From Caldithrix abyssi DSM 13497 (lineage in GTDB: Bacteria; Calditrichota; Calditrichia; Calditrichales; Calditrichaceae), in NCBI RefSeq assembly GCF_001886815.1, contig NZ_CP018099.1, positions 3,842,501 to 3,906,500 of the forward strand: a stretch of DNA of 64,000 bases, read 5' to 3'. A program made the translations under genes and the position numbers. The notes beneath the pieces were generated by a model. It saw only the letters and a list, made by a program, of their open reading frames with translations, ran no database searches and had not been told where the DNA came from. Positions 4,210 to 36,130 of the stretch are shown one piece after another (the stretch's first letter is position 1; each line of letters starts with the position of its first letter).

Positions 4210-4677
4210 ATGATGAAAATAATTGGTTTAGGAAATCGGTTGCGGGGTGACGACGGCATCGGACCTGTGGTCCTTGATAGTTTGAAAAAAAAAGACATAC
4301 CTATCCCCCTTCAATTTATCGAAGCCGGGTCCGATGCCTTTACCCTGCTTGAACATTTAAACGCTTCCGAGCCAATGATCATTGTTGACTGCGCAGATAT
4401 GGGGTTTGAACCGGGAACGGTTAAAGTATTTGATGTTAACGAACACTTTGCCATGCAACATGATTTCATTTCTTTGCATGGATTTAGCTTTGCCGAAGTG
4501 CTGAGCCTGGCTCAGGCCATGGGGCCCATTGCCCCCTGTAAGATTATAGGAGTTCAACCCGCTACAATCGAATTTGGGCAACCCATTTCCCGGGCGGTGA
4601 ACAAGGCGTTGCCTGAAATTTTAAACTTGATAATTGAGGAGGCACAAGCGTATGCCGAAGAAAATCTTAATCATTGA
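4210..4677 (+). CDS. hydrogenase maturation protease (HyaD/HycI family)
   Basis: Nickel-dependent endopeptidase that trims the C-terminal tail of the hydrogenase large subunit. The family signature GLGNRLRGDDGIGP is at the N-terminus, followed by the metal ligands expected of the family: Glu in EAGSDAF, Asp in VDCADMG and His in SLHGFSFAE. The ATG follows the hydA stop with no gap; a second in-frame ATG at 4213 is equally possible. The 3' end overlaps the next gene by 26 bp. The length of 155 residues is normal. Its substrate is almost certainly the adjacent HydA. Confidence 0.9.
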   Translation: MMKIIGLGNRLRGDDGIGPVVLDSLKKKDIPIPLQFIEAGSDAFTLLEHLNASEPMIIVDCADMGFEPGTVKVFDVNEHFAMQHDFISLHGFSFAEVLSLAQAMGPIAPCKIIGVQPATIEFGQPISRAVNKALPEILNLIIEEAQAYAEENLNH

Positions 4678-5038
4678 CGATGATATCGATCTGGTCGAAG
4701 CCATGCGTTTAACTCTTGAAAACGCCGGCTTTGAGGTCATTGACGCTCAGGACGGGGAAAAAGGTCTCGAAAAAGCGCTTAAAGAAAAACCCGATCTCAT
4801 CATCCTGGATGTCATGATGGGCACTCAGGACGAAGGATTTCATGTGGCTTATCAGATGCGACAAAATGAAGACCTGCAGTCCATCCCAATCATCATGCTG
4901 ACCGCAGTGGGACAGGAAACCGGTTTTAAATTTGACAAAGAAAAGGACGAGGACTTTTTACCGGTCGAGGAATTCATTGAAAAACCGGTTGATCCGCAAA
5001 AACTTGTGGAACGCATAAAAGTAAACTTAGGTATGTAA
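4652..5038 (+). CDS. stand-alone response regulator receiver protein
   Basis: A single receiver domain of 128 residues with no output domain. The acidic pair IDDD near the N-terminus, the phospho-acceptor Asp in ILDVMM, the conserved Thr in MLTAVG and the Lys in IEKPVD are all present. The start at 4652 follows GAGGAGG; an upstream TTG would extend it without a ribosome site. It overlaps the hydrogenase protease gene, so it is part of the hydrogenase transcript, and it lies upstream of a histidine kinase on the same strand at 5334. It may be that kinase's partner, acting by protein contact. A link between this signalling pair and hydrogenase expression or activity is inference. Confidence 0.88.
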   Translation: MPKKILIIDDDIDLVEAMRLTLENAGFEVIDAQDGEKGLEKALKEKPDLIILDVMMGTQDEGFHVAYQMRQNEDLQSIPIIMLTAVGQETGFKFDKEKDEDFLPVEEFIEKPVDPQKLVERIKVNLGM

Positions 5039-5073
5039 ACATCCCCCCAAAAACCATAAATAGATCATTGCGA

Positions 5074-5247
5074 GGGTGTCTCAAAAGCGACATCAAATGT
5101 ATATATATCCAAAATATAGAAAAAAGATTACAATACCCCTCACCCCCCTTCCCCCTCTCCCGATTTTCGGGAGAGGGGGAATTAAAGGGGGTGAGGGAAA
5201 GAAAAACTTTATAAAAATACATTTTCTTTGACTTTTGGGACAGCCCC
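5074..5247. repeat. MITE-like element, family A copy 1
   Basis: A 174-bp element with imperfect terminal inverted repeats: left GGGTGTCTCAAAAG, right CTTTTGGGACAGCCC in the GGGGCTGTC(T/C)CAAAAG pattern. It carries a nested palindrome (CCCTCACCCCC to GGGGGTGAGGG, inner CTCCCGATTTTCGGGAG). It fills most of the 295-bp gap between the response regulator and the histidine kinase. Other copies are at 43425-43601 and 59675-59857. Confidence 0.85.
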
Positions 5248-5333
5248 GCAATTTTCTTAATTTTTTCTAAAGACCTTCTTTTTTTGTGAAAAATTTTATA
5301 TATTAGCATGTAATCATTAAGTGGAGATGCAAT

Positions 5334-6686
5334 TTGCTTTTAAAGAACATCATTAAAGCAAAGGGGGAGCTCTTTCCTTTTTTAGACATCAATATTTTGC
5401 AAGACAGGCTCGGCTGGTCCATTAAATTACGGTGGCTGGCCATTGCCGGCTATTTTATGGCCACGCTGGTCGCAAAATATTTGATGGAGTTTAAAATACC
5501 CTATCATCTCATCTGGCTTACTTTATGCATTTTATTAATCATCAACATCTTCTATTTTCTGGTGCAAAAGTTCCTTAAAAACATCTCTTTTTTTACAGAG
5601 CTGTTCATTTTAAGCGTTCATATTTTCGTCGATCTGGTTTTCCTTTCATTACTATTGCACTTTTCCGGTGGGGTGGAAAACCCGATCTATTTATTTTACC
5701 TGTTTCATGTGGTATTGAGCAGCATTGTATTTCCCCGGAACTATCCTTACCTGTTTTCAACGCTGGTCGTTATCCTCTTTGCCCTGCTCCTGTTTGCGGA
5801 ATACAGCGGGATATTGCCCCATTACTCAATTTTTGGCGCGCATCTACATCTCAATCTTTCTGCCATTGGGCTTACGTTATTTGTTTTTGCCATTACCGTT
5901 TATGTTACCACTTATATTTGTCTTGGTTTTATGAAAATATTTCGAGAGAGCAAGCAGGTCATCGATAAGCAGAACCTGGAACTGCAGAAAGCGAACCAGC
6001 AAAGGATGCAATTTTTCCGCTATGCCTCTCATGAGCTCAAATCGCCAATTGTGGCCATTAAAACCACCATCGACTCGGTTCTGGCCAATTTTGGCAAAGA
6101 GATCAATCCGGCCGGGGTTGACCTTTTACAACGAGCTTCCAATCGCGCAGAACAGATGTTGTCTATTATCAAAGACCTGCTGGAGCTCTCCAAAGCGCAG
6201 CAGAGAACGCTTAATAAAACCACAGAAGTAATAAATGTAAATCGCGTGCTCGATGAAGTCATTGCTCAAGAAGGCGTGTTAGCTGCCGAAAAGAGAATTA
6301 ATCTGATTCTGGATGTAAATTTTGATTCTTTGACCGTTCACATGCACAAAGACGACCTGGAAAAGATTTTAAGGAATCTGGTCAATAACGCCATCCGCTA
6401 TACTTCGGAAGAAGGCAGCGTAACGGTAAAAGCGATTAAAGATAAGAATCAATTGATTTTTCAGATCAGCGATACGGGCATTGGTATTGAGGAAAAAGAT
6501 ATCGATCACATTTTTAATGAATTCTACCGGGCCGAAAATGCCAAAAATATGGTTGGCATGGGCACCGGTCTGGGACTGAGTTTGGTCAAACAAATTGTCG
6601 AAAGTTACGGCGGTAAAATCGAAGTAAAATCAAAACTTAACGAAGGTTCTACCTTTACAGTTTATTTACCTTTAAGGACTCATTAA
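5334..6686 (+). CDS. membrane sensor histidine kinase
   Basis: The N-terminal ~200 residues form about six hydrophobic segments without a large extracellular sensor loop, so the signal is probably sensed in the membrane. A linker helix is followed by a HisKA dimerization domain with SHELKSP (His near residue 233) and an HATPase_c domain with N box (LRNLVNNAIRYT), DTGIG and GTGLGLSL. TTG 5334 is taken as the start: GTGGAG lies before it, and the ATG at 5327 is in a frame that stops at once. The ACT-domain gene follows 17 bp downstream. The receiver-only protein at 4652 is the nearest candidate partner, separated by a family A repeat. Confidence 0.88.
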   Translation: MLLKNIIKAKGELFPFLDINILQDRLGWSIKLRWLAIAGYFMATLVAKYLMEFKIPYHLIWLTLCILLIINIFYFLVQKFLKNISFFTELFILSVHIFVDLVFLSLLLHFSGGVENPIYLFYLFHVVLSSIVFPRNYPYLFSTLVVILFALLLFAEYSGILPHYSIFGAHLHLNLSAIGLTLFVFAITVYVTTYICLGFMKIFRESKQVIDKQNLELQKANQQRMQFFRYASHELKSPIVAIKTTIDSVLANFGKEINPAGVDLLQRASNRAEQMLSIIKDLLELSKAQQRTLNKTTEVINVNRVLDEVIAQEGVLAAEKRINLILDVNFDSLTVHMHKDDLEKILRNLVNNAIRYTSEEGSVTVKAIKDKNQLIFQISDTGIGIEEKDIDHIFNEFYRAENAKNMVGMGTGLGLSLVKQIVESYGGKIEVKSKLNEGSTFTVYLPLRTH

Positions 6687-6703
6687 ACAACGAGGGATGA
6701 AAA

Positions 6704-7168
6704 ATGATAAAGATCGGGGGGCTTGTCGATCAGACAAACTTGACCATGTACGCCATTACTTCTTTAAAAGATCGGCCTGGCGCGGCGGCAGAGGTATTGA
6801 ATCTTTTTGCCAGAGAACATATCAATCTTGAATATATAACTGAAGGATGTTGTCAGCAGAATTACGCTTCGCTTGTCTTTTGCGTTAATTCCGAATTTTC
6901 ACAAAAAGTGGATACAATTATTAGAGAAAATATTGAGGAGCACGCCAATCATATTCGCAAACGGGAATATGTGTGTATTTTGGGCATCTATGGTCCGCAC
7001 TTCAGAGAAAAGCCGGCCATAGCCGCTCATTTCTGTTCGGTGTTAGGCCGCGCAGGAATCAATATTCTGGGGCTGTCCAGCAGTATTTCAACCATTTCGG
7101 CCATCATCGATATCCGGGAGCGCGAAAAAGCCTTAAACGCCCTGATGCAGGTATTTAAGCTGCCCTGA
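6704..7168 (+). CDS. tandem ACT-domain protein
   Basis: A 154-residue protein made of two ACT-type regulatory folds: the first begins around YAITSLKDRPGAAAEVLNLF, the second around CILGIYGPHFREKPAIAAHF. The pattern resembles the regulatory half of aspartokinase, which binds amino acids. No catalytic domain is attached. A ribosome site (ACGAGGGATG) precedes the ATG, and the gene follows the kinase with a 17-bp gap. It could be an allosteric subunit for an amino acid enzyme made elsewhere, or a sensor linked to the kinase; the ligand is unknown. The window has two homoserine dehydrogenases that lack an obvious ACT domain, but any link is speculative. Confidence 0.75.
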   Translation: MIKIGGLVDQTNLTMYAITSLKDRPGAAAEVLNLFAREHINLEYITEGCCQQNYASLVFCVNSEFSQKVDTIIRENIEEHANHIRKREYVCILGIYGPHFREKPAIAAHFCSVLGRAGINILGLSSSISTISAIIDIREREKALNALMQVFKLP

Positions 7169-7187
7169 AAAACCTGTGCCGGGCGCC

Positions 7188-9968
7188 TTATTCTTTGTTA
7201 TCTAAAATGGCTCTTACTTTTTTGGCCATCTGCTGAATGGTGTAGGGCTTGTGTAAAAATCGATACCCGCGGCTCAACAGGCCGGTTTTCATCAACTGGC
7301 TGTCGGTATAACCGGAGGTCAGCAAAATTTTGATATTCGGGTTCAGTTCTTTAATCTCTTCGGCTAATTGATCGCCGCCCATGACCGGCATCACCATATC
7401 GGAAAACACCATATCCAGTTCATTAACCAGATTATTCTGTTTAATGATTTCCAGCGCTCTGGCCCCGTTTTCTGCCGCGTAAACTTTGTAGCCCAGGTTC
7501 TTTAAAAAGGTGCAGGCCAGCTCGCGCACATCCGGGTCATCTTCTACCACCATTATGGATTCCTGCGCTTTGGTGGAAATTTCGCTGGTCTCGTCCCGTT
7601 CGGATTTATCCTGCTCTTCCTCGCTCACCGGCCAGTAGATATGAAACGTGGTGCCCTGCCCCGGCGCGCTTTCCAGATAAATACTTCCGCCGTTTTGCTT
7701 GATAATGCCGTAAACCGTTGAAAGCCCCAGGCCGGTGCCCTTGCCCTCGCTTTTGGTCGTAAAAAACGGCTCAAATATTTTGTCCTGTATTTCCTCCGGA
7801 ATTCCGATGCCGTTGTCCGAAATGCTGATGCGTACATACTCGCCTTCTCTACTGCCGGCATGACGCGAAACAAAATCTTCGTCCAGTACCACTTTTTCGG
7901 TCTGTACTTTTATCATTTTACGGACGCCCGGATCGCTCAAATGGTTCAGGGCGTCTCTGGAATTGATAATCAAATTAACCAGCATCTGTTCGATTTGCCC
8001 GGGATCTGCCTTAATCGGAGGCACATCCTCCGCCAGTTGAGTTACCAGCTCGATGTCTTCATTGATCAATTGACGCAGCATCTTTTTAAGGTCATCAATG
8101 ATCTGGTTCAGATTGACCACGCGCGGTTCGATTAATTGTTTGCGGCTAAAAGCCAGCAGCTGGCGGATCAAATTTTCGGCGCGGCGCCCGGAACGCAAAA
8201 TATTTTGAATAAAGGCCTGCATCTCATGGTCATCCGGCAGACCGCGACGAATCATTTCTGCATAGCCGTTAATAGCTGTCAGAATGTTGTTGAAATCGTG
8301 GGCAATGCTGCCGGTTAACAAACCGATGGATTCCATCTTTTGCGCCTGGAACAGTTGCTGTTCGAGCTGCTTCTTTTCGGTTACATCGCGCATGATGCCT
8401 TCGTAGGCCACAATTTTGCCAGCTTCGTTTTTTACGGCGCCGGCGGTAACCAGCACTAAAATTTTCTGACCGTCTCTGTTCTTTAACGTCAATTCGTAAT
8501 CTTTAACAAAACCTTTCTTTTCTATCGCTTTCATAAACTTAACGTGGTCCTCAGGATTTAGATACAGATCGCCTGCTTTAACTTTTAAAACGTCGTTTAA
8601 AGATTTAAAACCGAACAATTTGACGCCGGCCGGATTCATATCCAGAATTCGGCCGGAAGGGGTGGCCACAAAGATCACGTCGGCCGAACGTTCGAACAGC
8701 ATTTTTATTCTGCTTTCGGAGCGGCGCAAATGTTCTTTGTACCGCTTGCGCTCCAGGGCGTTTAAAAAGATCAAACCGGCGGTCAGCAGGGTATGCTCGG
8801 TAAAAGAAGGCCAGTCTTCCCGCTTACGTAAAAAGTCCAGCCCGATAAAACCGACGATGGATTCATTTAAGATTAACGGCACGATGAATAACGATCGAAT
8901 GTCCTCCACCTTCCAGATAGATTTAATGGTGCTGGCTTCCACAGGTAATTGATCCACATCGCTTATGGCCAGATGGCTGGAACGACGCAACGCTTTTACA
9001 AACCATTTAAAATCTTCTTTATCGATCTGTTCATGGCGGGCGATTTTTTCCTTTACGCCTTCCTTTCGATATTCGTGTGATTTTTTTAGCGAGGTGCCTT
9101 TTTGCGCAAAAAAGTAAAGATACGATCGATCGGCTTCAAAATATTCGCAAAGCGTTTTTAAACCGTTGTTCACCATAGAATCGATTTCATCAATCGTGGC
9201 CTGGATGAATTGCGTGGCCAGAGTGGTCAGCGATTGTTCCAGCTGGAAAATATTGTTAAGATCGATGATCTTTTCTTGCAAACTCTGGTTTTTATTGAAA
9301 AGTTGTTCTTTTTCTTCCTTTAATTGCTCAAACTCCACCTTTAAATCGTGCAAGCGCAAAGATTCGTCGGACAGGGTTTTGATCTCTTCGCGCTGTTGTT
9401 TTAAATAAGAGAGCAAATTGGTATCGAGAATTTTGAAAACAATGCCAAACAAATTGGCAAATAAAATAAAAATGATGTGCACCGACTGCAGCATGGTCGC
9501 GTTCTGCGGCCAGATAATGGGAAAGAGCGAATAAAGGGTGGATAAAATCAAACCGCCGGCCAGCGCCCACCAGAATCCAGGCAGCAGAAAAAAATAGCCC
9601 ACCAGCAAAATGGAAACAAAACCAAAGTTAAAAACTTCGCTGTTTAAGCCGGGTTGCGAATGGAAAAGCACAAGGAACACCGTTCCCACACTCAAGTAAA
9701 ATAAAAATAAAAAAGTATCAGCGTGCCTGATAAGCGCTTTATAACTTAAGGCCAGAATGGACACCAGCCACATCCCAACCGGTAACCAGAATTCCCACTC
9801 GCCAAGCAACCATAACCAGCCTTTTTGATTGAAAAACAAAAAGTGGTTAAAGGCCAGGTAAACCACCAGTAAAAAACTTACGCCGATCCATCGTTTTTGC
9901 GTATCCTGTAAAAGAGGAAAAAAAGAATTGGTTTGCAAGGCAATCGAGTCTTTTTTGTTTTTTTTCAT
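7188..9968 (-). CDS. hybrid sensor histidine kinase/response regulator (GAF-PAS)
   Basis: A 926-residue hybrid kinase. Domains in order: five or six membrane segments (about 25-180), a coiled coil (190-240), a GAF domain (about 245-415), a PAS domain starting near [18 protein letters not shown] (about 425-545), HisKA with [16 protein letters not shown] (His near 568), HATPase_c with DNGIGIP and GTGLGLST, and a C-terminal receiver with VVEDDPD, phospho-acceptor Asp in MVFSDMVMP, and HKPY. HisKA of the HDFNN type is common in hybrid kinases that phosphorylate their own receiver. No partner gene is adjacent. It is convergent with the ACT gene (19 bp apart), and no terminator hairpin is obvious between them. 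Confidence 0.9.
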
Positions 9969-10023
9969 GTGCTAAGACACCTTTTGTACGTTCCATGTAT
10001 CAATTTCTATTTAAATAAAAAAA

Positions 10024-13000
10024 TCATTTTTGCAAAATTATTTTTTTAACCGCCGAATATTTTGCCCCTTTTAAGCGCAAAATGTACATCCCGCTGGCGA
10101 CAACGCTGTTTCCATTATTCTTCCCATTCCATTTAAATTGATGATAACCGGCCTCGAACTTATAGTTTTTAACCAGGGTTTTAACGCGGCGACCGTTAAT
10201 GTCAAAAATTTCGATCGTAAGACGATCGGCTTCGGGCAATTGTAATTTAAAAGTCGTGCTCTGATTAAACGGATTGGGAAAGTTCTGGCTCAACTGGAAT
10301 TGTTCGGGAACGGGCAGAAATTCTTCGCTCTTTTTTTGCACAAAGTCAGCGCTTCCGACGATTAAACGAAGCCGAACTCCAGGAGAACTCAGCTTTGCCG
10401 GCAGCTCAGAATAACATAAACGGCCGGTCGGCGAAACAAGCTTCCACGTCCAGCCCTCGGGCAGTGAATCCGGTTTAATATTAACGTAAGCCGCAAGGCC
10501 CGTGTTCCAATTAACCTTAAAATCGAACTGGTAGCCCTCTTCGCCGGCGGGGCGGATATCCGCAGCCATTTTTTGGCTGTCATCATTTTCAAAATAGAGC
10601 GAAACAAAAGAGCCGATGGTCGGCGGCTCGGGGACGAGAGCCGTTTCCGAATGGCCGTCGGTTGTGGAACATGCGCCCACAAAATTGACCTCATCCTCAT
10701 AAAACCCGCTGCGGGCCGTCAGTTGAACCTGCCAATCCAGATCCGTTAAAATCGCCGCTCTGGCCAGGGTATTTTGCGCAGGGCTGGGCGGGATGGCGAC
10801 GGCGGTTTTGTCGCTGATTTTGACGGCGTACCCTTTGTACGGTTCAAGAACGTTGGCGATGATCCAGCCCGTTCCGGTGTAATAATACAGCACGGGCGCC
10901 CCAGGCCAGTTTTGCGTAACCTCCTGCCAGGCAACCGGAAAGGGAAAAGGATTGGCGATCATATTCCAGCCGCTGGCAACCGGTATTTCAAAGTTGACAT
11001 TTGTAGGCACGCTTTGCAGGTCGCCGGCGTCCAGCTGCAAAGAGTCTCTGGCGATCAAATACAACGCTTTGCCCGGCGGTAATACCGTTTCTAACTGCTT
11101 CTGTTCTACAAATTTTAACTGCTGCGCATCCCAGTCAAACAAGCGGTACTTTTCCGCATCGTACGCTCCCAGATCGTCTGTAAAAAGATCGGCCAGCGAA
11201 CGATCGGTAACAAAGGGTAAAGAGATCATCTGATATTTTTCTTTTCTGGTAAAGTACGGAAACTGGATTTCAGGAATCTGCACCGTAAAATAAAGGGGAT
11301 TTTGCGCGCCATTTTCCGGAAAGATCGTCTTCCTTCCACCGTGTTCAATCTCAAAGTACGCTTCAAGGCCTGTGACGGTAATCCAGTCTGCCGGGATGTG
11401 CGCCGTCCAGCCCGTGTCGGGACTAAACTGCAGGGGCAGCGTCTGATACTCATCACCGGCTCCCGGCCGCAGATAAAGAAGCGCGCTCCGGATGGCGGTA
11501 GAGTCGTCTGTGATGGCAAAGCGCACGGTTGACTGCTCGCCAAGCACAAGACGCAGAGAATCCGGTTCAAAATTTACCTGCGCAGGCGTTGGATCGATTT
11601 TCCCCCTGCCCAGCAGCGGAATGGTAAACGGCGAGCGCTCGGGATCGTTGGAATAGATGATCAGGGCTGCCGAATAGCTGCCCGCCGCTGTTGGGTTAAA
11701 CGTAATCTGAAGCGACGTCAACGAGTCGTCTGCGGCAATGGTCAGGTTGTTCAAAGCGGATTTAAGACCAAAGGCAGAAGCCTGGGCTCCGCTAATTTGC
11801 GAGCTATCAATCATCAACACGCCGTTTCCTAAGTTGAACAGGCTAAAGGAACGCACGCCGCTCTCCTGCACAAAAATCGCGCCAAAATCACAGGTATCGT
11901 TTAAACTGCTAATGAACAACGGCGCGGCCGAGGAGTAGAGCGCCACGCCCCGCAAATTTACGGAGAGCTGACGTTGCGCAAGGTCCTGCGAATAGATTTG
12001 CAGCTGCGCCAGGTGCAAACCAGTTTGTTGAGGACGATACGTAATTTTGAAGGTCAAAAGCGAGTCTTCCGGATTCAGCGCCAGCGGAAAATCAAAATCC
12101 GGCAGGCTGAATGCGTCCGAGTTCGGGCCGCTGAGGCGGATGCTGTCCACATAAAACACCACGCGGCTGTTGTTGCGCATCTCCAGGGTTTGCTGCGCAT
12201 CGGAGTGTATGATCTGCTTGCCGAAATCCAACATGGGTTGCACAGTAAAATGCACGCTGTCCGCTTCGCCAATCAGACGCAGCACGTAAGGCTGGTGGTA
12301 GGGGTTGTTCCAGTAAATGGTTAAGTCGCTTTCGAAACGGCCGACATCTTGCGGCGTAAAACGGATGTTCAGGGGCAGCGGGTCCGCGCCGGCAGCAATG
12401 CGTTGGGGCGTCGGTTCAACCAGCGAAAAGACCGCCGGATTACTCAAAACGATGGAATCGATGACTACCGGGGCGTTGCCTGTGTTCTTTAAAAACAACG
12501 ATTGGACGGGCTGACGATACAGAGAATATCGGCCGAAATCCAGCGTGTCTGTAAGCGCCTGTAACACGGGTTCAACGCCCAGCGCCCGGATGGTCAACAC
12601 GCGCGGATTACGAAAAGGATCGTTGGAATAGATTTTAACGGAAGCCTCCTGCCAGCCTGCCTTTTGCGGAAAAAAAGAAACGGGAAAGCTGAGCGTATCG
12701 ACCTGCGGCTGCAGAATCTTCGGAACGTTGAAGGCGGTAATGGTCAGATCGCTGTTTTGCGGCAAAGTTACCGACAGCGAATCGATGAACAACTGGTAAT
12801 CGCCACGGTTAAAAATTTTAACGATTTGCGTCTTTTGATCGAACAACATGACGGAATCAAAGCGCACCGAATCCGGTTCAAACGTTAGCTCAGCCGCTTT
12901 TACAAAAGCGGCAAGGGGCAATTGGAACTCAGGATTCAGGGCGTCGTTGCTGACGATTTTAAGGGCGGCGTTTAAAGCGCCGCTACGTTGCGGCAGGCAA

Positions 13001-26668: not shown

Positions 26669-27679
26669 TTAGCGCACTTTCATTTTCAGCCCAACAACGA
26701 GTTGTCCGTACTGCCAGCGATCAGCAGGGCGAATCAAACGTTCTTGCTCGTAGCCCAGTCGGAGGTAAATCTCTATGCGGTGATTGACATCGTGGCCGAG
26801 TTTCAGGTGGAAACGGTTGGCCGAGTTGACCGGGGAGTACAACAGCCGGGATGTAAGATTTTCACTTGCAGAAGGCAGGCGATTGTAACCGACAAATAAA
26901 AAGAATGTCCAGCGTTCGCCGAGCCAGACGCCAAACAAAAAATTAACCTGTTGATCCGTAAGCGGTTTGATCAATCCCTGATGAAAGTGTAAGAGAATTT
27001 TGTAGTTGAGAGAGAAAAGAAAATCGCGTTTGCGATCGATGGAAAAAGATAGGCCCACGCGCTGCCCGCTTGTTGTGCGGAGCGTATCACCGGCCACAGG
27101 GTGCAGCACGTAGCGTTCATGGTAGAGCAAAGCCATCAGGGAAAAGGATTGGAAGATTAGGCCAGGGCCGATCTGCGCCACAGCGGCGTTCAGCTTCTGG
27201 CGGTCAAAGTCTTTAGTGTCGCGGTACCACAGCATTCCCATGGCGTTCCAGGAAAAAGATGGCGACGTCCGGTAAACGAGATTCAGGGAAAAATCGCTGC
27301 TTTGCCAGGCGTAAGCTGCAGATGAAAATTGAAAATGCTGGTAACGCGTTCGGAAACGGATGTCAGCCGCCAATTTTTGAATCTGGCCGCTAAGCACGAA
27401 TTGGCCTTTGAAGCGTTGCGAAAATAGGGAAGCATTTAGGTCAAAAATTTCCTGCTGGTAAGAAGCGCGCCATTTAAAACGAACGTGGTCTTCGGAAACG
27501 GTCTGCCCCAGCTCGAGTCGCGGTCGGATGAGCAAGTAGCTTTTTTCGTTTTTAAAACGCGAGAGCCCATTTTCGAACTGGAGATGCGTAAAAAACTGGG
27601 CGTAACCGTCTGCAGACAAGCTTAGTTCAAACAGTAAAAGAAGAGCGAGAGAGTGAAACATTCGAGGTAAGACAGCCAT
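26669..27679 (-). CDS. putative outer-membrane beta-barrel protein
   Basis: I do not recognise a named family. The 336-residue product has a signal sequence (LALLLLFELSLSADGYAQ) and then alternating hydrophobic/polar strands rich in Phe, Tyr, Trp and Arg (RFKWRASYQQEIFDL; FQFSSAAYAWQSSDFSLNL), ending in a strand YGQLVVGLKMKV, as in outer-membrane barrels. It is the last gene of a four-gene minus-strand operon, 6 bp after the coiled-coil protein. It may be the target or output of the two-component pair encoded upstream. Confidence 0.68.
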   Translation of the reverse strand: MAVLPRMFHSLALLLLFELSLSADGYAQFFTHLQFENGLSRFKNEKSYLLIRPRLELGQTVSEDHVRFKWRASYQQEIFDLNASLFSQRFKGQFVLSGQIQKLAADIRFRTRYQHFQFSSAAYAWQSSDFSLNLVYRTSPSFSWNAMGMLWYRDTKDFDRQKLNAAVAQIGPGLIFQSFSLMALLYHERYVLHPVAGDTLRTTSGQRVGLSFSIDRKRDFLFSLNYKILLHFHQGLIKPLTDQQVNFLFGVWLGERWTFFLFVGYNRLPSASENLTSRLLYSPVNSANRFHLKLGHDVNHRIEIYLRLGYEQERLIRPADRWQYGQLVVGLKMKVR

Positions 27680-27685
27680 TGCATT

Positions 27686-28630
27686 TCACTGTTTTAATTT
27701 GTCTTGGATGATTTGTCGGTACATTTTTAGCATGGCCCGGGTTCGTTCGATGGCTTTGAGCGCCGAATCGATAGGCACAGGCGATTGGCCCTGCAGCGAC
27801 TGGTTGATCAGGCGATCAATTTGTGGCAGATCGACTACCACGCCCGACGCGGAGGCAGAGGACGGAGTTGACATGAAAGATGCGGCGCCATCACGATCGT
27901 CGGAAGCCTGCGGCGCCATGTTCGTCTTTGGATTCTGCTGAAAAGGGGCGGCGGCCGTCATTTGCGCGTCGTCGATCTCTTCGACAAAAGAGAGCGCTTT
28001 TTGCTGTAAGCGTTGCATCTGGCGCAATTCTTTGCCCTTTATTTCCAGATACTGCGTCTGCCGATCGATTTCATTCAACGCGTTTTGCAAATAATCGATT
28101 AAAATCGCTTTTTTAAGACTGTCCTGCACCTGATTCAAATTCAGCTTGCGGATGTTTTCCAGATTCAGCGATAACGTTTTAAGTTCTGGCGAAACCTGCA
28201 AACGTTTACGCCTCAGGCGTTCGATTTGTGTGGACAGGATATCTTTTTGCGCCGGCTTTTTTGCGGATTGGAGCGCCTGGCGCAAGGAGTCGATTTGCCT
28301 GCTGTAAACACGAAACAGACGGGCGTTGACGGAGGCAAGCCGTGCGTGCAGCGAATCGAGTCTTTCCTGAAGAAAAACGATTTGTTGTGAGTAGGTCAGG
28401 GCCTCTTTTTGCCGGGGATTAATGGCCTGGAGATTGGCCTGCGCTTTTTGTAAGGAATCGATCTGGATTTGCAGGGGGCGCAAACGTTGGTTAAGGGCCT
28501 GTTTTTTCAGCGAAAGTTGCCAGCTTTGCTCGAGTAGATGCTGGCGTTCGGCTTCCAGATGGGACAGCGGGGTTGTTTGCGCCAGCAGGTTGAACGCGTA
28601 AAATAGCGATGCGATTAAAATGAATCTCAT
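27686..28630 (-). CDS. exported coiled-coil protein
   Basis: A 314-residue protein with a short signal peptide (FILIASLFYAFNLLAQ) and about 200 residues of heptad-rich coiled coil dominated by Gln, Leu, Arg and Lys (SLKKQALNQRLRPLQIQIDSL), followed by a low-complexity Ala/Ser segment (about 235-265) and a short helical end. It overlaps the NtrC-type regulator gene by 4 bp, so it belongs to that operon. The form resembles periplasmic coiled-coil adaptors, but no family is recognisable. A periplasmic role with the barrel protein downstream is inferred. Confidence 0.7.
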   Translation of the reverse strand: MRFILIASLFYAFNLLAQTTPLSHLEAERQHLLEQSWQLSLKKQALNQRLRPLQIQIDSLQKAQANLQAINPRQKEALTYSQQIVFLQERLDSLHARLASVNARLFRVYSRQIDSLRQALQSAKKPAQKDILSTQIERLRRKRLQVSPELKTLSLNLENIRKLNLNQVQDSLKKAILIDYLQNALNEIDRQTQYLEIKGKELRQMQRLQQKALSFVEEIDDAQMTAAAPFQQNPKTNMAPQASDDRDGAASFMSTPSSASASGVVVDLPQIDRLINQSLQGQSPVPIDSALKAIERTRAMLKMYRQIIQDKLKQ

Positions 28631-30003
28631 GTGTTCAGTCCGAATTTTTCCAACTTGTAATACAGGGCGCTGGTGCCAATGCCCAGCAATTTGGCCGCGC
28701 GCTGCTTGACGCCATTAGCTTTTTTTAAAGCCTGAATGATCAGGTTTTTTTCGAAGTTGTACAGAGCTTCGTCCAGGGGCAGATGTTGCCAGTCCTGCGC
28801 GTTTATCTGTACGTTAGAAAGTTGAGCGGCAGCCAGGTGCGCGGGAATGGTTGTTTGCGGGCAGATGATGTGCAGGCGTTCCATCACGTTTTGCAATTCG
28901 CGGATGTTGCCCGGCCAGTGGTAAGCGCTCAATATTTCGAGTGCGGCCGGGTCGAGCTGTTTAACGCAGCCGCGGCGCTGGTTGAGCTGTTGCAGAAAAT
29001 ATTCCACCAGCAGAGGAATGTCTTCTTTGCGTTGACGCAGGGGCGGCACTTTGATGGGAATGACATTTAATCGGTAATATAGGTCTTCCCGGAAATGGCC
29101 GCTGGCGATTCGTTGTTCCAGATGGCGATTGGTGGCGGCGATAACGCGCACATCGACCTGCAAGGTTCTTTCGCCGCCGACGCGTTCAAATTCTTTTTCC
29201 TGCAAAACGCGGAGTAATTTAATTTGCAGAGCGGGAGAGACATCTCCAATTTCATCCAGAAAGAGGGTGCCGCCATCTGCCAGTTCAAAGCGGCCCTTTC
29301 GCTGGCGAATGGCTCCGGTAAAGGCGCCTTTTTCGTGCCCGAATAGCTCGCTTTCCAGCAGGTTGTCGTTCAGAGCGCCGCAGTTTACTCTGACAAACGG
29401 ACGGTCGGCGCGTTTGCTTTGCTGATGGATGGCCCGGGCGATCAGTTCTTTGCCCGTACCGCTTTCGCCCTGGATGAGCACGGGACTGTTTTCGTTGGCC
29501 ACGGTTTCGATCAAACGGAAGATCTCGCGCATGGCTGGCGACTGGCCGACCATCTGCCCAAACTGACCGCTTAGTTCCTGATTAAGGTAAGTGTTTTCAG
29601 CTCGTAGTTGTTCGATTTGTTGGCGTTGAAGAATCTTTTGCGCGATATTGCGCACGCGCAGTAAAAATTCATCGCCGGAAAAGGGTTTGGTTAAAAAATC
29701 GGCCGCGCCAATTTTCATGGCCTGTACGGCTTCTTCGATGGTGCCATAGGCGGAAATGAGCAGGGCTTCGATGTGCGGTTGTAGTTTCTTGCTTTCCTGC
29801 AATACCTGCAGGCCGTCCAGCGGCTTCATGCGCAAATCGGTTACCAGCAGATCGACTTCATGGTTTTTCAGGAACTCCAGCGCCGAAGGGCCGTCTGCAA
29901 AATCGAAGGCCAGATAGCCGGCGCGTTTTAAATTTTCGCTCAAGCCAAGGCGCATGGTATCGTTGTCTTCCACCACCACGACAGTTAATTTATTCTGTTT
30001 CAT
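28627..30003 (-). CDS. NtrC-family sigma-54-dependent response regulator
   Basis: A 458-residue activator: receiver (VVEDND at the N-terminus, phospho-acceptor Asp in LLVTDLRM, Lys in TKPF), AAA+ domain with Walker A GESGTGKE, the sigma-54 contact loop GAFTGA, Walker B GTLFLDEIG, and a Fis-type helix-turn-helix at the C-terminus (KQRAAKLLGIGTSALYYKL). It activates sigma-54 promoters when phosphorylated by a partner kinase, here surely the kinase encoded 1 bp upstream. GAFTGA implies that sigma-54 is present in this genome, which supports the promoter call at 168. Confidence 0.95.
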   Translation of the reverse strand: MKQNKLTVVVVEDNDTMRLGLSENLKRAGYLAFDFADGPSALEFLKNHEVDLLVTDLRMKPLDGLQVLQESKKLQPHIEALLISAYGTIEEAVQAMKIGAADFLTKPFSGDEFLLRVRNIAQKILQRQQIEQLRAENTYLNQELSGQFGQMVGQSPAMREIFRLIETVANENSPVLIQGESGTGKELIARAIHQQSKRADRPFVRVNCGALNDNLLESELFGHEKGAFTGAIRQRKGRFELADGGTLFLDEIGDVSPALQIKLLRVLQEKEFERVGGERTLQVDVRVIAATNRHLEQRIASGHFREDLYYRLNVIPIKVPPLRQRKEDIPLLVEYFLQQLNQRRGCVKQLDPAALEILSAYHWPGNIRELQNVMERLHIICPQTTIPAHLAAAQLSNVQINAQDWQHLPLDEALYNFEKNLIIQALKKANGVKQRAAKLLGIGTSALYYKLEKFGLNT

Positions 30004-30004
30004 T

Positions 30005-31390
30005 TTAGCTTACTTCCGTGGTTAATTGAATTCTGAAAACGGCACCCGCAGAGGCGTTTTGGACCAGGCTGAGGGTGGCGTCGTTCAGGGCGCACAGTTT
30101 TTGACAGATGGTCAGGCCAAGCCCTACGCCGCTGTTTTTGGTGGTAAAGAAAGGTTGAAAAATTTTTACGCGGTTTTCCGGCGCAATGCCCGGGCCGTTG
30201 TCTTCGATTTCCAGGGTGTTTTGTTCGCAGCGCAGCATGATAATGCCGGGATGACCGTTCATGGCCTGCAAACTGTTGGCCAGCAGATTGCTTAAAATGT
30301 GTTTCAAATGCTGGCGGTCGAAACGCAGGACGCTCTGTTTAAAGTGCGTTACGAGTTCTACTTCTTTTTTTTGCATTTCGATCGCAAAACGCGCTTTAAG
30401 CTCATCCACCAGTTGCGGCAGGTTTACTTCTGTTTTTTCAGCGGGGCGCGGCCGGCTGTATTCCAGAAATTCATTGATCTGCTCTTTGAGATGGCGCACT
30501 TCTTCCAGCGCCTTTTTTAAATAGGTTTGATCGGCGTGTTGCGGCGGCAGGTCGTCTTTGACCAGACCGATTAACAACTCGATGCCTCCCAGAGGGTTGC
30601 GCAATTCGTGGGCGATCTGGGCCAGCAGTTGTTCTTTTTCCTGATCGCGGCGGGCCAGGGCATCGCGCATGTTGGTGAGGGCGCGGGTCAGATCGACGAT
30701 TTCTTTAAGACGGGTGGCCGGCGGTTGGGCAGAAAAATCGCCGCGGCCAATCTTTTGGCTGAAAAGAGTAATGCCCCTGATGGGCGCGTGTACGGAATGG
30801 GCGATGTACAATCCGGCCAATAGCGTTAGAACCACTCCTACCAGTACAAACCAGACAAAGTAATCGGATAAGCGATTGATTTGGGCCAGTTGGTGAGCGC
30901 CGGCCCGCAGGCCGATGAAATGCTCGTTGGTCAGGCGCTGAAAAGCCCACAGGTACCACTGCCGATCGTCGCCTTTAAAAGGCTGCGTGATGAAAACCTG
31001 CCCGATTTTCAGATGGCGCAGGATTTCTTTATTGACCAGCAAACCGGCCACGGCATCGGCACGCTGCAGGGCGTTTAATACCTGCCAGCGATCGTTAAAA
31101 ATAAAGGCGTTTTCAAGACTTAAAAGAGAATCGAGACGATTCAGAGTTTGGCTGAAATAGCGTTGGGCCATCGATTGTTGGTTGACTGTGAGAAAATGCA
31201 GTAATTGCCGATCGATGGCGTTGTTTGCGACGCGCAGGCTGGTTTGCATTTGCTCTTGAAATTGCTGCAGGTACAAATTACGCACAAACAGGTAGCTAAA
31301 GCGGGCCAACAGAACAAGGGCCAGCACGTTGATGAAGGCAAAAAGAACGATGGTTCGCGCTTTTAGAGAATGAGGATTGATTATGTTCAT
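30005..31390 (-). CDS. membrane sensor histidine kinase, partner of the NtrC-type regulator
   Basis: A 461-residue kinase: N-terminal membrane helix (VLFAFINVLALVLLARFSYL), a periplasmic sensor region of about 150 residues, a second helix (YFVWFVLVGVVLTLLAGLYI), HAMP-like linker, HisKA with AHELRNPLGGIE, and HATPase_c with NLLANSLQAM, DNGPGI and GVGLGLTI. I chose ATG 31390 over the upstream GTG at 31441; the extra 17 residues show no signal character. The gene heads the four-gene operon with the NtrC regulator, the coiled-coil protein and the barrel protein. The periplasmic domain points to an envelope signal. Confidence 0.9.
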   Translation of the reverse strand: MNIINPHSLKARTIVLFAFINVLALVLLARFSYLFVRNLYLQQFQEQMQTSLRVANNAIDRQLLHFLTVNQQSMAQRYFSQTLNRLDSLLSLENAFIFNDRWQVLNALQRADAVAGLLVNKEILRHLKIGQVFITQPFKGDDRQWYLWAFQRLTNEHFIGLRAGAHQLAQINRLSDYFVWFVLVGVVLTLLAGLYIAHSVHAPIRGITLFSQKIGRGDFSAQPPATRLKEIVDLTRALTNMRDALARRDQEKEQLLAQIAHELRNPLGGIELLIGLVKDDLPPQHADQTYLKKALEEVRHLKEQINEFLEYSRPRPAEKTEVNLPQLVDELKARFAIEMQKKEVELVTHFKQSVLRFDRQHLKHILSNLLANSLQAMNGHPGIIMLRCEQNTLEIEDNGPGIAPENRVKIFQPFFTTKNSGVGLGLTICQKLCALNDATLSLVQNASAGAVFRIQLTTEVS

Positions 31391-31594
31391 GATACGACCT
31401 GTTTTGAATGCACTAATGTACAAATTAGTTTGATTACACACAATGGGGATTGGCCTGCTGCATTCCCCTGTTGTGGATTAATCACAATTCTGCCAGACCA
31501 GTTTTTCTGATCAGCTCCGCCTGGGCTAATCAACGTTTCAACCTTCAGGCTTTCTTGCCATAAATAAAACACCGCGCTGGATTTATTGGTCAAC

Positions 31595-32854
31595 CTAAAA
31601 TTCTTCCCACAGCGGTTTCATTACCTTCCCCATGAACAACACGGCGCCAGTAGATCTTTCACTGATCACAAAAACAAAGGGCCGATCGAATACCAGGCTT
31701 AAAATGGGTGGCGGGCCAATAGTAGTGGTCATCATTTCAACAATGGTGACGGCTGCCGCTTCGGCGCCTTTTTCGCTGACTTCAATAAAGGTCTGATGAA
31801 TGACACGATTGATGAACAGTGGAAATTGGTCTGTAATACGGGAGAAATCGGCATGCACAGGATCAAAAGCGATATCCATGCCCAGCTTTTTTAACGGTTC
31901 GTTGAGTAATGCCTTAAAGCCGAACCGTAGTTTGGGTAAACCGATGGTGCAGCTATCTTCTTTTAAATTTTCTTGAATTCGCGTCCATTCGTTTTGCGTA
32001 AAATTCAGCAAATATTCATTAAAATCATCCATACGCCTGGGCATGATGAAGGTCATAACGTAATTGCCCTGACCAAAAGGCACCTGAGCCACCTGAATTC
32101 GTTCCTCAAATAATGCTGGGATTCTGCAAGTCACAAACATCATGGAGCACTCCGCGCTCTGGCCGTCGATCTGATGAAAAACACGCTGTTGCACCTCGTC
32201 TTCCGGAAACTGGTAGGTCCACAAGCCATTAAAGTACAGAGCGTTGATCAAATACATTACGGCGTCTGGAGGAATTTCATCCAATACTTTTTTAATTTTT
32301 TGATTGGTGGCCTGGGCGATCCAGTTGTTAATGGTTACAACAGCCTGAGGATCTGCAAAATTTAAATCGCGTACTTCAGCGTTAAAATACTGGCGATTAA
32401 CGGCCAGAAATTCCGGAAAAAAATCGCTGCCTTTTTTACACCAGATGGAGTTAGCAATCTGAAAGGTGACGCGGGGATCAAGTTGTTGTAAGTTCTGGTA
32501 AAGATAGGCATAGGTCTCATTAATGGACTGTTCATCCATCTCAGAAAAGCCAAGCGTATTTTGCATGGCTGAATAGGTTTGCCCATTAGCGCCATTTAAG
32601 GCCATGCCCAGAGCCATGGAAACACTAAAGGGAGAGATGAATACATTATCTTTCTGATTTACCTGATTAACCTGAGAAAACAGAGAAAAGGCAAAGGCGT
32701 TGTTGGCGTTTATTACTTTTTTATGCAAACTATTTACAGGAAACGTTTTGTATCCGGAATCTTCTTGCGCTAACGGTGTGCGATCGATGCTGCACCCTAC
32801 TGCCAGCCACAGGCAGCAAAGCGACACGCTAAAAGAGAAAATCAAACGTTTCAT
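31595..32854 (-). CDS. lipoprotein serpin (serine protease inhibitor) 1
   Basis: A 419-residue serpin. The lipobox LAVGCS after a hydrophobic signal predicts lipid anchoring after export. The serpin core is complete: NNAFAFSLF helix, VFISPFSVSMALGM, WCKKGSDFF, NALYFNGLWTYQF (breach/shutter region), and near the C-terminus the hinge EKGAEAAAVT followed by a reactive loop and the FDRPFVFVI strand. The Ala-rich hinge is the mark of inhibitory serpins. The scissile bond cannot be fixed from sequence because the loop is longer than in alpha-1-antitrypsin. I chose ATG 32854 because GGAGGGGG lies before it. A tandem paralog lies 64 bp upstream. Confidence 0.93.
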   Translation of the reverse strand: MKRLIFSFSVSLCCLWLAVGCSIDRTPLAQEDSGYKTFPVNSLHKKVINANNAFAFSLFSQVNQVNQKDNVFISPFSVSMALGMALNGANGQTYSAMQNTLGFSEMDEQSINETYAYLYQNLQQLDPRVTFQIANSIWCKKGSDFFPEFLAVNRQYFNAEVRDLNFADPQAVVTINNWIAQATNQKIKKVLDEIPPDAVMYLINALYFNGLWTYQFPEDEVQQRVFHQIDGQSAECSMMFVTCRIPALFEERIQVAQVPFGQGNYVMTFIMPRRMDDFNEYLLNFTQNEWTRIQENLKEDSCTIGLPKLRFGFKALLNEPLKKLGMDIAFDPVHADFSRITDQFPLFINRVIHQTFIEVSEKGAEAAAVTIVEMMTTTIGPPPILSLVFDRPFVFVISERSTGAVLFMGKVMKPLWEEF

Positions 32855-32917
32855 TTTACCCCCTCCTGATTGCGCAGTCGTGGCGCATACGCCACGGTAC
32901 GAAAGCATTTTACGTTA

Positions 32918-34141
32918 TTAAGCAGGCTTTACCATCTTACCTATAAACAAAATGGCGCGGCTGTCTTTTTCATAAATGACAAAAAGGAACGGCCGGCTGG
33001 CGATCATTTCAAAAAAGTCTGAAGACGTCCGTTCAAAACCGACGATGGTTACTCCGGCCGCTTCAGTTCCTTCCTCATTTACCTCAACAAACGTTTTGTG
33101 TTTAACCAGGCTAATATAAACTCCACTTTCCGGCGTCATATTGGAAAAATCGGCCTTTGTCGGACTGAAAGCGTCCGGCATGCCCATCTCTTTTAGAAGA
33201 TCATTCAAAACCATTTCAAATTCCATCTTAAAGCGCGGCAGGCCGATTGTTCCGCTGTCCGCCTGGCAGGCCTCCAGCCACGACTGCCACTGCGTAAAAT
33301 TCAGTTCTGCCAGCAAGCTATCCACACTCAACGAAACATCGGGCAAAATAACGGCCATGTTAAAATTTCCGTTGCCGTAGGGCAGTTGAACCAGCTCAAA
33401 GTTGTTCCCTTTGTAATGGAGTAATTTTTTGGTTAGAAACATCATCGGGCAGTTTACGCTCTGTCCGTCTGCCATGCGGAAGCTCCAGTCCCTTGTGGCC
33501 TGCGGATCAAAGGCGTACGTCCAGGCGCCTTTAAAATAGATGGCGTTAAGCAGGTAAAGAACGGCATCGCGCGGAATGTAAGTCAGAATGGATTGAATTT
33601 TGTCGTGCGTTTTTTCCTTAACCCAGTTGTTGATGGCCATTAACGTGGCGGGATCTGAAAAATTTGCCTGGCGCGCTTCGGCCTCAAAGTATTGTTGATT
33701 GGCATCCAGAAACGAGGGCAGGACAGTAAAATTTTGATCATACCAGATGGCGTTGGCCAGTTCCAGCGCAACCTGCGCATCGCTATTCATTAACTGCTCA
33801 AAATAGTTTTTGTAAGTCTGGTTGATGGTCTGCAGATCGTGGGACTCATAGCCCAGAACCTGACGGATTTGTTCAAAGGTGTTGCCATGGGCGCCGTTTA
33901 AGGTCATGCCCAGAGCCATGGAAATGCTGAAGGGCGAGATAAAGACGTTCGTATCCTGTTTGGACGCGTTAATTTCCCGGAACAGTTCAAAACTGAAGTC
34001 ATTGTTAATGTTAACAAATTCGCTTTGCGCCAGCGCCTGACCGGACAAATCGTCCGCCGGAATTAAAGGCGCTTTGTTTATGCTGCAGCCGACCAGCCAG
34101 AACGCTAAAAGCAATACGAGACCTAAAAAAATTCGTTGCAT
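32918..34141 (-). CDS. lipoprotein serpin (serine protease inhibitor) 2
   Basis: A 407-residue serpin with a lipobox LVGCS. It parallels its neighbour along the whole length (VFISPFSISMALGMTLNGA, NAIYFKGAWTYAF) but the reactive loop after the hinge EEGTEAAGVT is different (IVGFERTSSDFF), so the two should inhibit different proteases. The ATG follows AAAGGAAAAAATC. The two genes form an apparent tandem duplication on the minus strand, 64 bp apart and probably co-transcribed. Targets could be secreted proteases of the cell itself or of neighbours. Confidence 0.93.
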   Translation of the reverse strand: MQRIFLGLVLLLAFWLVGCSINKAPLIPADDLSGQALAQSEFVNINNDFSFELFREINASKQDTNVFISPFSISMALGMTLNGAHGNTFEQIRQVLGYESHDLQTINQTYKNYFEQLMNSDAQVALELANAIWYDQNFTVLPSFLDANQQYFEAEARQANFSDPATLMAINNWVKEKTHDKIQSILTYIPRDAVLYLLNAIYFKGAWTYAFDPQATRDWSFRMADGQSVNCPMMFLTKKLLHYKGNNFELVQLPYGNGNFNMAVILPDVSLSVDSLLAELNFTQWQSWLEACQADSGTIGLPRFKMEFEMVLNDLLKEMGMPDAFSPTKADFSNMTPESGVYISLVKHKTFVEVNEEGTEAAGVTIVGFERTSSDFFEMIASRPFLFVIYEKDSRAILFIGKMVKPA

Positions 34142-34348: not shown

Positions 34349-36130
34349 TTAAAAGCGCATGGTGATGCTGAGCCACCATTGAGTGATGGTCATATCTTCC
34401 ACAAAATCCGGATTAATTAAATAGCGAACGGTAGTGTTTTTCACCAGCGGCGCTTCAAAGCCCAGGGCCATGTCTGCCGTGTCTTCGGTGAAATGTCTGC
34501 CAGGCTGAATTTGAGTCCGTTCGATAAAGTCTTTGCGGACATTTTCTTCGCCGTCGTGTAAATCATATCTTTCCCTGTAATAAGCGTCGGTCTTTTCGCT
34601 GGTTTCCCAGGCCGTCCAGATTTTATTGATGATCAAAAAAATAGCCAGGTTCTTGTGCATACGATGCCACCAGTAGATGGGCATCTGTATGGTCTGCCTT
34701 GTGTAGTCATACGTCCAATACAGCGTTTTATCTTCGCGCGTGTGATAAGTACTTTCGTAGGAATAGTAGCCGGTTATGGGGCGCTCTCCCTCTTCTACAC
34801 GATGCGAATACGCTTCGTACAAAACCGGTTCCTGCACGCTTTTTTTGCCTTTTAAATAGGAAAAATAGAGGCCTAAATGCATTCTGGTCGTGGCGTTTTG
34901 ATTAAGCATGACGGTAATCATTGATTCGAAAAGACGTTCGCTCAAATCGCCGCGACCGTTTCTTGAATCGGTTAAGGTAGAAATGCCATTCATTAAATAA
35001 TATTCCAGCCCGTTTTCAGAATAATAGTCGGACTGACGATGAGTGCGGATTTCTGCAAATGTGGCAATGTCGTTGTTCAGAGAAGCAAAATTGAAAAAGC
35101 CGAAAACCTTGTTCCATTTGTTGGGCGTAAATTGAATACTGAGCGTGGCGTAGTATCGCTGGCCGTCGTGTTGCAGGCGTGTTTTTTCCAACTGTCGGTA
35201 GTCGTAGCTTCCGTATTGGTCTTTGCTTTGCAGAGTGTCGTCCAGAAATTCTTTTTGTTTCACCCCGCCGTCCAGCAGACCGGCCTGCCAGCCGACTCGC
35301 CAGCGCTCATTTATCTGCCAGCTCATTCCCGCAAAAAAATCCGCATGACGGTAATCCATATCCCGTTTATTGATATATTGGCTAAAATAGTAGTTTTCAT
35401 AATCGTTACGCTTCAGCGCAAGATAATCGGCGTTGCGACGGTGCGCAGCGAAATCGGCGCCAATGCCCACCGCAATAGAGCGGCTCAGACGGTAAGAGAG
35501 GTAGGCGGCGAACAGATGCGCGCGAGTCAGCGCCTGATCGCCCTGCCGATTCAGCCTGGTGATCGGGACGTCCATTTGCTCCGGGAAAATGCGCTGGTTA
35601 AATCCATCGTAATAAGGATTGGGCTGATAAAGATAAACGGGCTGACGGTAAAAGGGCTCTTCTTTGTAAATCAACTGATAAGCAAGCGTAAGCTGCCATG
35701 CCGGCGCCAATCGGGCGCGAAAACCGGCGGACAACACCGGTTCCGGTTCGGAACGCGTAACCCTGTACCAGCGAGGATCGGGCGGATAGATGGCAATGTA
35801 GTCGCCATAAACATATATTGGGGTGGGGCGAATCAGGCGATCAGGCACATTGTTCTTGCGTTCGCTGCGGTAATCAAAATAAAATTCCATTTTTTTGAGT
35901 GAATCCAGCGCGCCGGTTACCGGATTGAGACTGGCCCTGAGAAAGGGATCATCAAAAAAACCAGGCGCCACGCGGGTAAAATTGGTCAGGCCAAAGGTGT
36001 TCAGATAAAAGCGTTGGAAATAGAGAGCGGAATTTTCGAACTGTTTTTCCAGCACCTCATTACTGGAAAACTGAGCCTGCGCCGCAACGATCCAGAAAAA
36101 TAACAGGCCGTATGCCATTATCTTTTTCAT
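34349..36130 (-). CDS. putative outer-membrane beta-barrel protein
   Basis: A 593-residue exported protein of no family I recognise. The signal peptide ends around FFWIVAAQAQ. The rest is strand-rich with many aromatic and charged residues (RYYATLSIQFTP; HLGLYFSYLKG) and it ends in a strand with a terminal Phe (WWLSITMRF), the usual signal for outer-membrane barrel assembly. ATG 36130 is chosen because GGGAGAA precedes it; the in-frame upstream ATG at 36178 gives a non-signal extension. The 207-bp gap on its 3' side (34142-34348) is AT-rich and holds no gene I recognise. Confidence 0.72.
   Translation of the reverse strand: MKKIMAYGLLFFWIVAAQAQFSSNEVLEKQFENSALYFQRFYLNTFGLTNFTRVAPGFFDDPFLRASLNPVTGALDSLKKMEFYFDYRSERKNNVPDRLIRPTPIYVYGDYIAIYPPDPRWYRVTRSEPEPVLSAGFRARLAPAWQLTLAYQLIYKEEPFYRQPVYLYQPNPYYDGFNQRIFPEQMDVPITRLNRQGDQALTRAHLFAAYLSYRLSRSIAVGIGADFAAHRRNADYLALKRNDYENYYFSQYINKRDMDYRHADFFAGMSWQINERWRVGWQAGLLDGGVKQKEFLDDTLQSKDQYGSYDYRQLEKTRLQHDGQRYYATLSIQFTPNKWNKVFGFFNFASLNNDIATFAEIRTHRQSDYYSENGLEYYLMNGISTLTDSRNGRGDLSERLFESMITVMLNQNATTRMHLGLYFSYLKGKKSVQEPVLYEAYSHRVEEGERPITGYYSYESTYHTREDKTLYWTYDYTRQTIQMPIYWWHRMHKNLAIFLIINKIWTAWETSEKTDAYYRERYDLHDGEENVRKDFIERTQIQPGRHFTEDTADMALGFEAPLVKNTTVRYLINPDFVEDMTITQWWLSITMRF

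Follow-up and report, generated by a model that had tools for sequence, protein, structure and literature searches.

Tandem predicted lipoprotein serpins with differing bait loops beside an outer-membrane barrel in Caldithrix abyssi

Among proteins of known structure, the closest relative of the two Caldithrix abyssi serpins considered here, A and B, is miropin of Tannerella forsythia (5NCS), which was the top PDB match for both (E=1e-75 for B, E=3e-75 for A). Miropin has the same hinge and loop frame as A and B, but the Lys at its P1 site is replaced by Arg in B and by Thr/Met in A, and miropin is a single gene in a host-associated bacterium, whereas the present genes form a pair beside an outer-membrane barrel and a two-component system. 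Serpins are also known from cellulosomes, where dockerins anchor them; Kang and others reportedly described such dockerin-bearing cellulosomal serpins in 2006. Like these, A and B are proposed to be exported and placed outside the cell, although the manner of anchoring differs.

Siropins 1 and 2 (PMC5127057) are a precedent for a bacterium with multiple serpins, as here. Oral Tannerella carry several serpins with differing bait loops, again as here, although those sets are larger than this pair and the source gives no arrangement or anchoring for them; in some Tannerella taxa an unpublished analysis reported there counted 12 or more such loop-diverse serpins (PMC7296668). The potempins resemble A and B in being lipoprotein protease inhibitors, encoded in operons of a T9SS bacterium (PMC7296668), but they are small, are not serpins and lie each beside its own KLIKK protease gene, a pairing not seen here. 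Slam (PMC5449769) is, as here, an outer-membrane barrel with adjoining lipoprotein genes; it combines an N-terminal TPR domain with a DUF560 barrel, however, and the barrel described below, without a TPR domain or a DUF560 match, is not a Slam.

The serpin pair and its reactive loops

The window, by which we mean the whole 64-kb stretch of DNA that was analyzed, holds two serpin genes in the order B, A (Table 1), the only serpins in the closed genome of 4,978,541 bases. In a Pfam search both were covered from position 2 to position 370 of the 370 positions of the PF00079 profile, the curated cut-off of which is 27 bits (serpins are family I4 in MEROPS), and the conserved serpin core residues are intact in both. 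The listed start of serpin A, ATG 32908, is very probably too early, and the real start is very probably ATG 32854, which is preceded by a strong Shine-Dalgarno sequence (aggaggggg, 32859-32867); with this correction the gap between B and A is about 63 bases. Lipoproteins were recognized by an n-region, an h-region, a lipobox and a Cys within the first ~25 residues, and both N termini start with a short basic n-region that leads through a hydrophobic stretch to a lipobox (MKR...CLWLAVG/C in A and MQR...AFWLVG/C in B), the lipoboxes being matched by regular expression as well. A lipobox alone predicts membrane anchoring only; display of A and B at the surface is plausible. In the Calditrichaceae serpins the lipid Cys is followed by a common motif, roughly C-x-x-D-x-x-P-L in consensus, which might be a sorting signal and which differs from the export signal of the Bacteroidota.

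Table 1. Positions within the window of the serpin genes, their motifs and the neighboring conserved genes.
Feature	Position	Strand	Remarks
Serpin B	32918..34141	-	First of pair; 407 aa; predicted lipoprotein (Cys19); PF00079 385 bits
Serpin A	31595..32854	-	Second of pair; 419 aa from corrected ATG; predicted lipoprotein (Cys21); PF00079 352 bits
Lipobox Cys of serpin B (FWLVG/C)	34085..34087	-	N-terminal reading
Lipobox Cys of serpin A (LWLAVG/C)	32792..32794	-	N-terminal reading
Hinge and bait of B, EEGTEAAGVTIVGFERTSSDFF	33011..33076	-	Arg codon 33029-33031
Hinge and bait of A, EKGAEAAAVTIVEMMTTTIGPPP	31706..31774	-	Orthologues read EIGATSV, EMGVTSV
Palindrome CGTGGCGTATGCGCCACG (CGTGGCG-TATG-CGCCACG)	32879..32896	.	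B-A gap; 7-bp arms, 4-base center
Outer-membrane beta-barrel gene	34349..36130	-	Upstream of B; found next to serpin or other lipoprotein genes across several lineages
Histidine kinase (HAMP, HisKA, HATPase_c)	30005..31441	-	Far side of lipoprotein slot; conserved
NtrC-type response regulator	28627..30003	-	Receiver, sigma-54 AAA+, Fis-type HTH
Predicted coiled-coil secreted protein of conserved block	27686..28630	-	No Pfam family
Predicted outer-membrane protein of conserved block	26669..27679	-	No Pfam family

The hinge motif of known inhibitory serpins (PMC8233489), taken here as ExGTEAAAx at P17-P9 with small residues, is found as EEGTEAAGV in B and as EKGAEAAAV in A, the full hinges reading EEGTEAAGVT and EKGAEAAAVT. 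Serpin A deviates at P14, where it has Ala instead of the usual Thr/Ser, a small residue that is probably tolerated. Counted from the Glu of the hinge up to the 'PF' strand, the loop has 28 residues in B and 31, the miropin length, in A. The preliminary description had read the locus as two adjacent serpins with lipoboxes, intact inhibitory hinges and loops of unequal length, and coordinates, PF00079 matches and N termini all bear this out, the loops that it quoted being exact.

In the alignment, miropin continues after the hinge with VEMVKTSS, A with VEMMTTTI and B with VGFERTSS. Lys368 of miropin, which we take to be its trypsin and plasmin site, aligns with Arg in B and with Thr, preceded by Met, in A. 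Strict counting from alpha-1-antitrypsin would instead put P1 at a Thr in both A and B, directly after the Lys368 column; as the two counting schemes disagree, the P1 assignment stays a prediction, and the Arg reading follows from the miropin alignment.

The order B then A is kept in the three genus members sampled, that of the window included, and in a fourth (G001) one serpin was seen. In a tree of serpins the three A copies cluster (100/99), as do the three B copies (98/95, and still 93/89 in a tree built without the loop and C terminus), and these separate clades place the A/B duplication before the divergence of the three species. Miropin falls on a long branch without support in this tree, which left out groups S and U of the reference serpin groups S, T and U, miropin itself being of group T (PMC8233489).

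The B bait, GFERT(S/A), is invariant in the three species (G002_1 and G003_1 were compared with the window), even though the serpin bodies are only ~55-62% identical between them, and selection seems to hold the specificity of B while letting that of A vary among non-basic residues, the A bait reading EMMTT, EIGAT and EMGVT. The bodies of A and B are 44% identical to each other. We had expected accelerated change of the bait between A and B, and this was not found, as the two differ at 5/8 bait positions vs 221/396 body positions (p=0.5), so that the pair alone gives no sign of it. The duplication followed by a change of target that had been proposed for the pair thus stands as to the duplication; with the B bait fixed at FER/T and the A bait variable and non-basic, the change of target is likely, but the loop has diverged between A and B no more than the body.

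The gap between the two genes holds a palindrome for which 0.03 chance matches would be expected per window with three mismatches tolerated. It was considered as a dispersed repeat, and no copy was found in the loci examined from other places. Sigma-54 promoter-like sites number 29 in the 64-kb window against 37 expected, and with no excess of them NtrC control of the serpins has no support from the sequence. Sigma-70-like sites occur at chance frequency in the window, one of them ~120-150 bases upstream of B.

Lipoprotein serpins and bait change in other bacteria

The majority of serpins in prokaryotes carry an N-terminal transport peptide, and some are membrane-anchored (PMC8233489). An alignment-based profile scan of one genome per species recovered at least 550 serpin relatives, whereas a scan of genome contigs with the single serpin B protein gave 0 matches. 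Among the full-length serpins at the best 80 loci of these relatives, at least 81 of 101 carry a lipobox by a simple pattern, and at least 14 of the same 80 loci hold tandem arrays of two to five serpins on one strand, with five in L115 (Prolixibacteraceae), four in L152 and three each in L159 and L140 (loci L112 and L160 are the genomes G004 and G028). The five serpins of the L115 array (3123-11230, from a Prolixibacteraceae MAG) are all lipoproteins, and no two of them have the same bait. Bacterial serpins are therefore not few and lipid-anchored pairs not unusual, contrary to what had been supposed.

In several genomes the bait does differ more than the body between copies. A clear case is a recent tandem pair in G013 (L033 2041-3936), which is 89-90% identical around the bait and reads AVLFGTTSV in one copy and LVGIEKTSN in the other, with differences at 6/9 bait positions vs 19/163 elsewhere (p=3e-4). 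Recent tandem copies in G007 differ at 4/9 vs 51/410 positions (p=0.02), and copies in G045 at 7/9 vs 146/399 (p=0.016), the latter lying on two separate contigs, so that tandem order is unseen. The single-copy pairs G038/G028, G014/G009 and G029/G034 show 0, 1 and 0 bait differences of 9. When 12 array pairs (one per array or genome) were compared with 15 disjoint single-copy pairs of similar mean body identity (0.74 and 0.75, respectively), the bait was less conserved in arrays, with a one-sided p of 0.04 for nine residues and 0.02 for the four central ones, a modest effect among pairs partly common in ancestry, with L163 entered as single-copy despite a second serpin without a recognized hinge. 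Nor is the bait in every case the segment of the serpin that varies most.

The neighboring barrel and its lipoprotein slot

The gene upstream of B encodes a protein of 593 aa from its likely start, which matched no Pfam or NCBIfam family beyond a sub-threshold OMP_b-brl match, gave no match to Slam or DUF560, and found no credible match in a profile search of PDB sequences. Its AlphaFold2 model is an outer-membrane beta-barrel (pLDDT 72, pTM 0.71) with a short N terminus in which a TPR was not seen. Structural comparison with Foldseek and VIA-align returned matches scattered over unrelated barrels (a Bdellovibrio OMP, BamA, CymA, FhaC and FadL), and hence names no function.

Of 40 Calditrichota genomes, 18 encode the barrel, namely 14 of the 21 with serpins and 4 of the 19 without, the latter leading us to drop the idea that it is restricted to serpin genomes. 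Outside the Calditrichota, 12 of 50 genomes with serpins have it. The barrel adjoins serpins or lies close to them in G000 (the window genome), G002, G005, G008, G012, G029, G031 and G034, and is less than 5 kb from a serpin in L111 (Melioribacter), L125, L133, L140, L141, L145, L170, L135, L136 and L147, in more than one gene order; in G003 a contig end prevents its placement relative to the serpins. Where the available sequence extended far enough, a conserved block could be recognized, in G000, G008, G009, G011, G012, G025, G028, G029, L111 and L135, consisting of the barrel, a lipoprotein slot, the histidine kinase, the NtrC-type regulator, the coiled-coil protein and often a second outer-membrane protein, and a partial block in G003, G004 and G031. 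The slot holds the two serpins in the window and small unrelated lipoproteins in G009, G011, G025 and G028, where the serpins, if any, sit outside it. By N-terminal reading, 18 of 21 slot ORFs at ten loci are lipoproteins vs 25 of 261 (about 10%) in a sample of stretches, the lipobox being read leniently at -1, the loci being common in ancestry and the sample including serpin loci. Compared with known protease-inhibitor families, the slot lipoproteins gave no Pfam match above cut-off except DUF6970 in L145.

Several further features of these loci were observed. In G007 (L068 554-4748) several small lipoproteins lie between a serpin fragment and the kinase, extending the slot. In L145 (5328-7838, Neomarinimicrobiota) the barrel is followed by a protein with DUF3160 that ends in a T9SS-type tail, and in L133 and L141 ORFs of similar length (829-837 aa) follow the barrel.

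We know of no earlier description of this conserved barrel and its lipoprotein company. A Slam-like role for it, as partner or in display, is possible by analogy, if unlikely. It is likewise doubtful, although conceivable, that the barrel founds an undescribed outer-membrane family that displays or holds surface lipoproteins, within a modular locus of barrel, variable cargo, histidine kinase and NtrC-type regulator that would extend over the Calditrichota and one genome of Melioribacter type; Neomarinimicrobiota would share the barrel-serpin pair, and in Caldithrix abyssi the tandem serpins would be the cargo.

Possible targets, purpose and significance

The peptidases encoded in the genome include five of C25 (gingipain-type) and about 12 of S8 (subtilisin-type). 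There are also several S1 matches, two of which were inspected and proved to be DegP-like, with PDZ domains; no C11 peptidase was found in the genome. One C25 and two S8 peptidases have T9SS-type C-terminal domains, with weak scores mostly just under the Pfam cut-off. According to its published genome paper (PMC5317091), Caldithrix abyssi has over 150 genes for peptidases and can grow on proteins.

We suggest that A and B are inhibitory serpins of the miropin kind. Sec would export them, and a lipid at the N terminus would hold them on the outer membrane. The reactive loop would act as bait, such that a target protease would cut it and stay covalently bound, and would be inactivated as the loop inserts into sheet A. 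From the alignment of its Arg with Lys368 of miropin (FER/T), B would be tuned to Arg-cleaving proteases, and A may be suited to enzymes that tolerate Met, Thr or small residues, for example those like subtilisin or elastase. Pairing B with C25 or trypsin-like enzymes and A with subtilases is guesswork from the bait, and inhibition of C25 cysteine peptidases by serpins would be a further assumption. A role against secreted serine proteases has been proposed (PMC4404884), which we count in favor of the inhibitor reading. The likeliest purpose would be the shielding of the cell's own surface from secreted proteases, both its own (C25, S8) and those of neighbors; a cell that secretes such proteases has reason to guard its surface, which leads us to prefer self-protection. 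Taken as a whole, from lipid-anchored inhibitory serpins through differing targets to self-protection at the surface, we consider this explanation moderately likely on the sequence evidence.

Other explanations were considered. The serpins might guard against the proteases of competitors or predators and not the cell's own, with tandem copies diversifying in an arms race. The concentration of bait change in the recent tandem copies of G013, G007 and G045 (p=3e-4, 0.02 and 0.016, as noted above) would fit this, as would the similar bait change in rodent SERPINA arrays (PMC12646145), but the bait of B is kept in this genus and is not racing, and the changes elsewhere could equally track changing proteases of the cells themselves; we think this rather improbable, if worth keeping in mind. 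Loss of inhibition by one or both serpins in favor of binding or storage, as in some animal serpins, might be read from the P14 Ala of A and its serpin score, the lower of the two, but with both hinges and the conserved core intact, and the open frames kept in two related species, it is very unlikely.

It is also conceivable that the adjacent barrel has the serpins as its cargo or partners and moves them to the surface or holds them there in the manner of Slam, their function being set by the locus and its two-component system. Supporting such a relationship, the barrel, a single-copy gene, lies close to serpins in eight genomes of the Calditrichota and at ten loci outside that phylum, small lipoproteins mostly flank it where the serpin is elsewhere or absent, and the lipoprotein share of the ORFs between barrel and kinase shows a pattern comparable to that of Slam genes, of which ~52% have lipoprotein neighbors (PMC5449769). 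Against it, barrel and serpin lie apart in five Calditrichota genomes that have both, the barrel is absent from 38 of 50 serpin genomes of other phyla, and it lacks a TPR domain, its only matches being to barrels in general, so that we judge this explanation to have a small chance of being correct.

The serpin pair is an ordinary, well-resolved case of a widespread design, that of lipid-anchored tandem serpins with altered baits, and it offers a clean test pair, a conserved Arg bait vs a variable neutral one, in a probably free-living thermophile. The bait changes in tandem copies suggest that the route by which animal serpins gain a paralogue and then a new bait also operates in bacteria. The barrel with its lipoprotein slot is the less expected part of the locus and the part most worth following. 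We know of no surface route for lipoproteins in these phyla, and if the barrel handles lipoproteins it would provide one.
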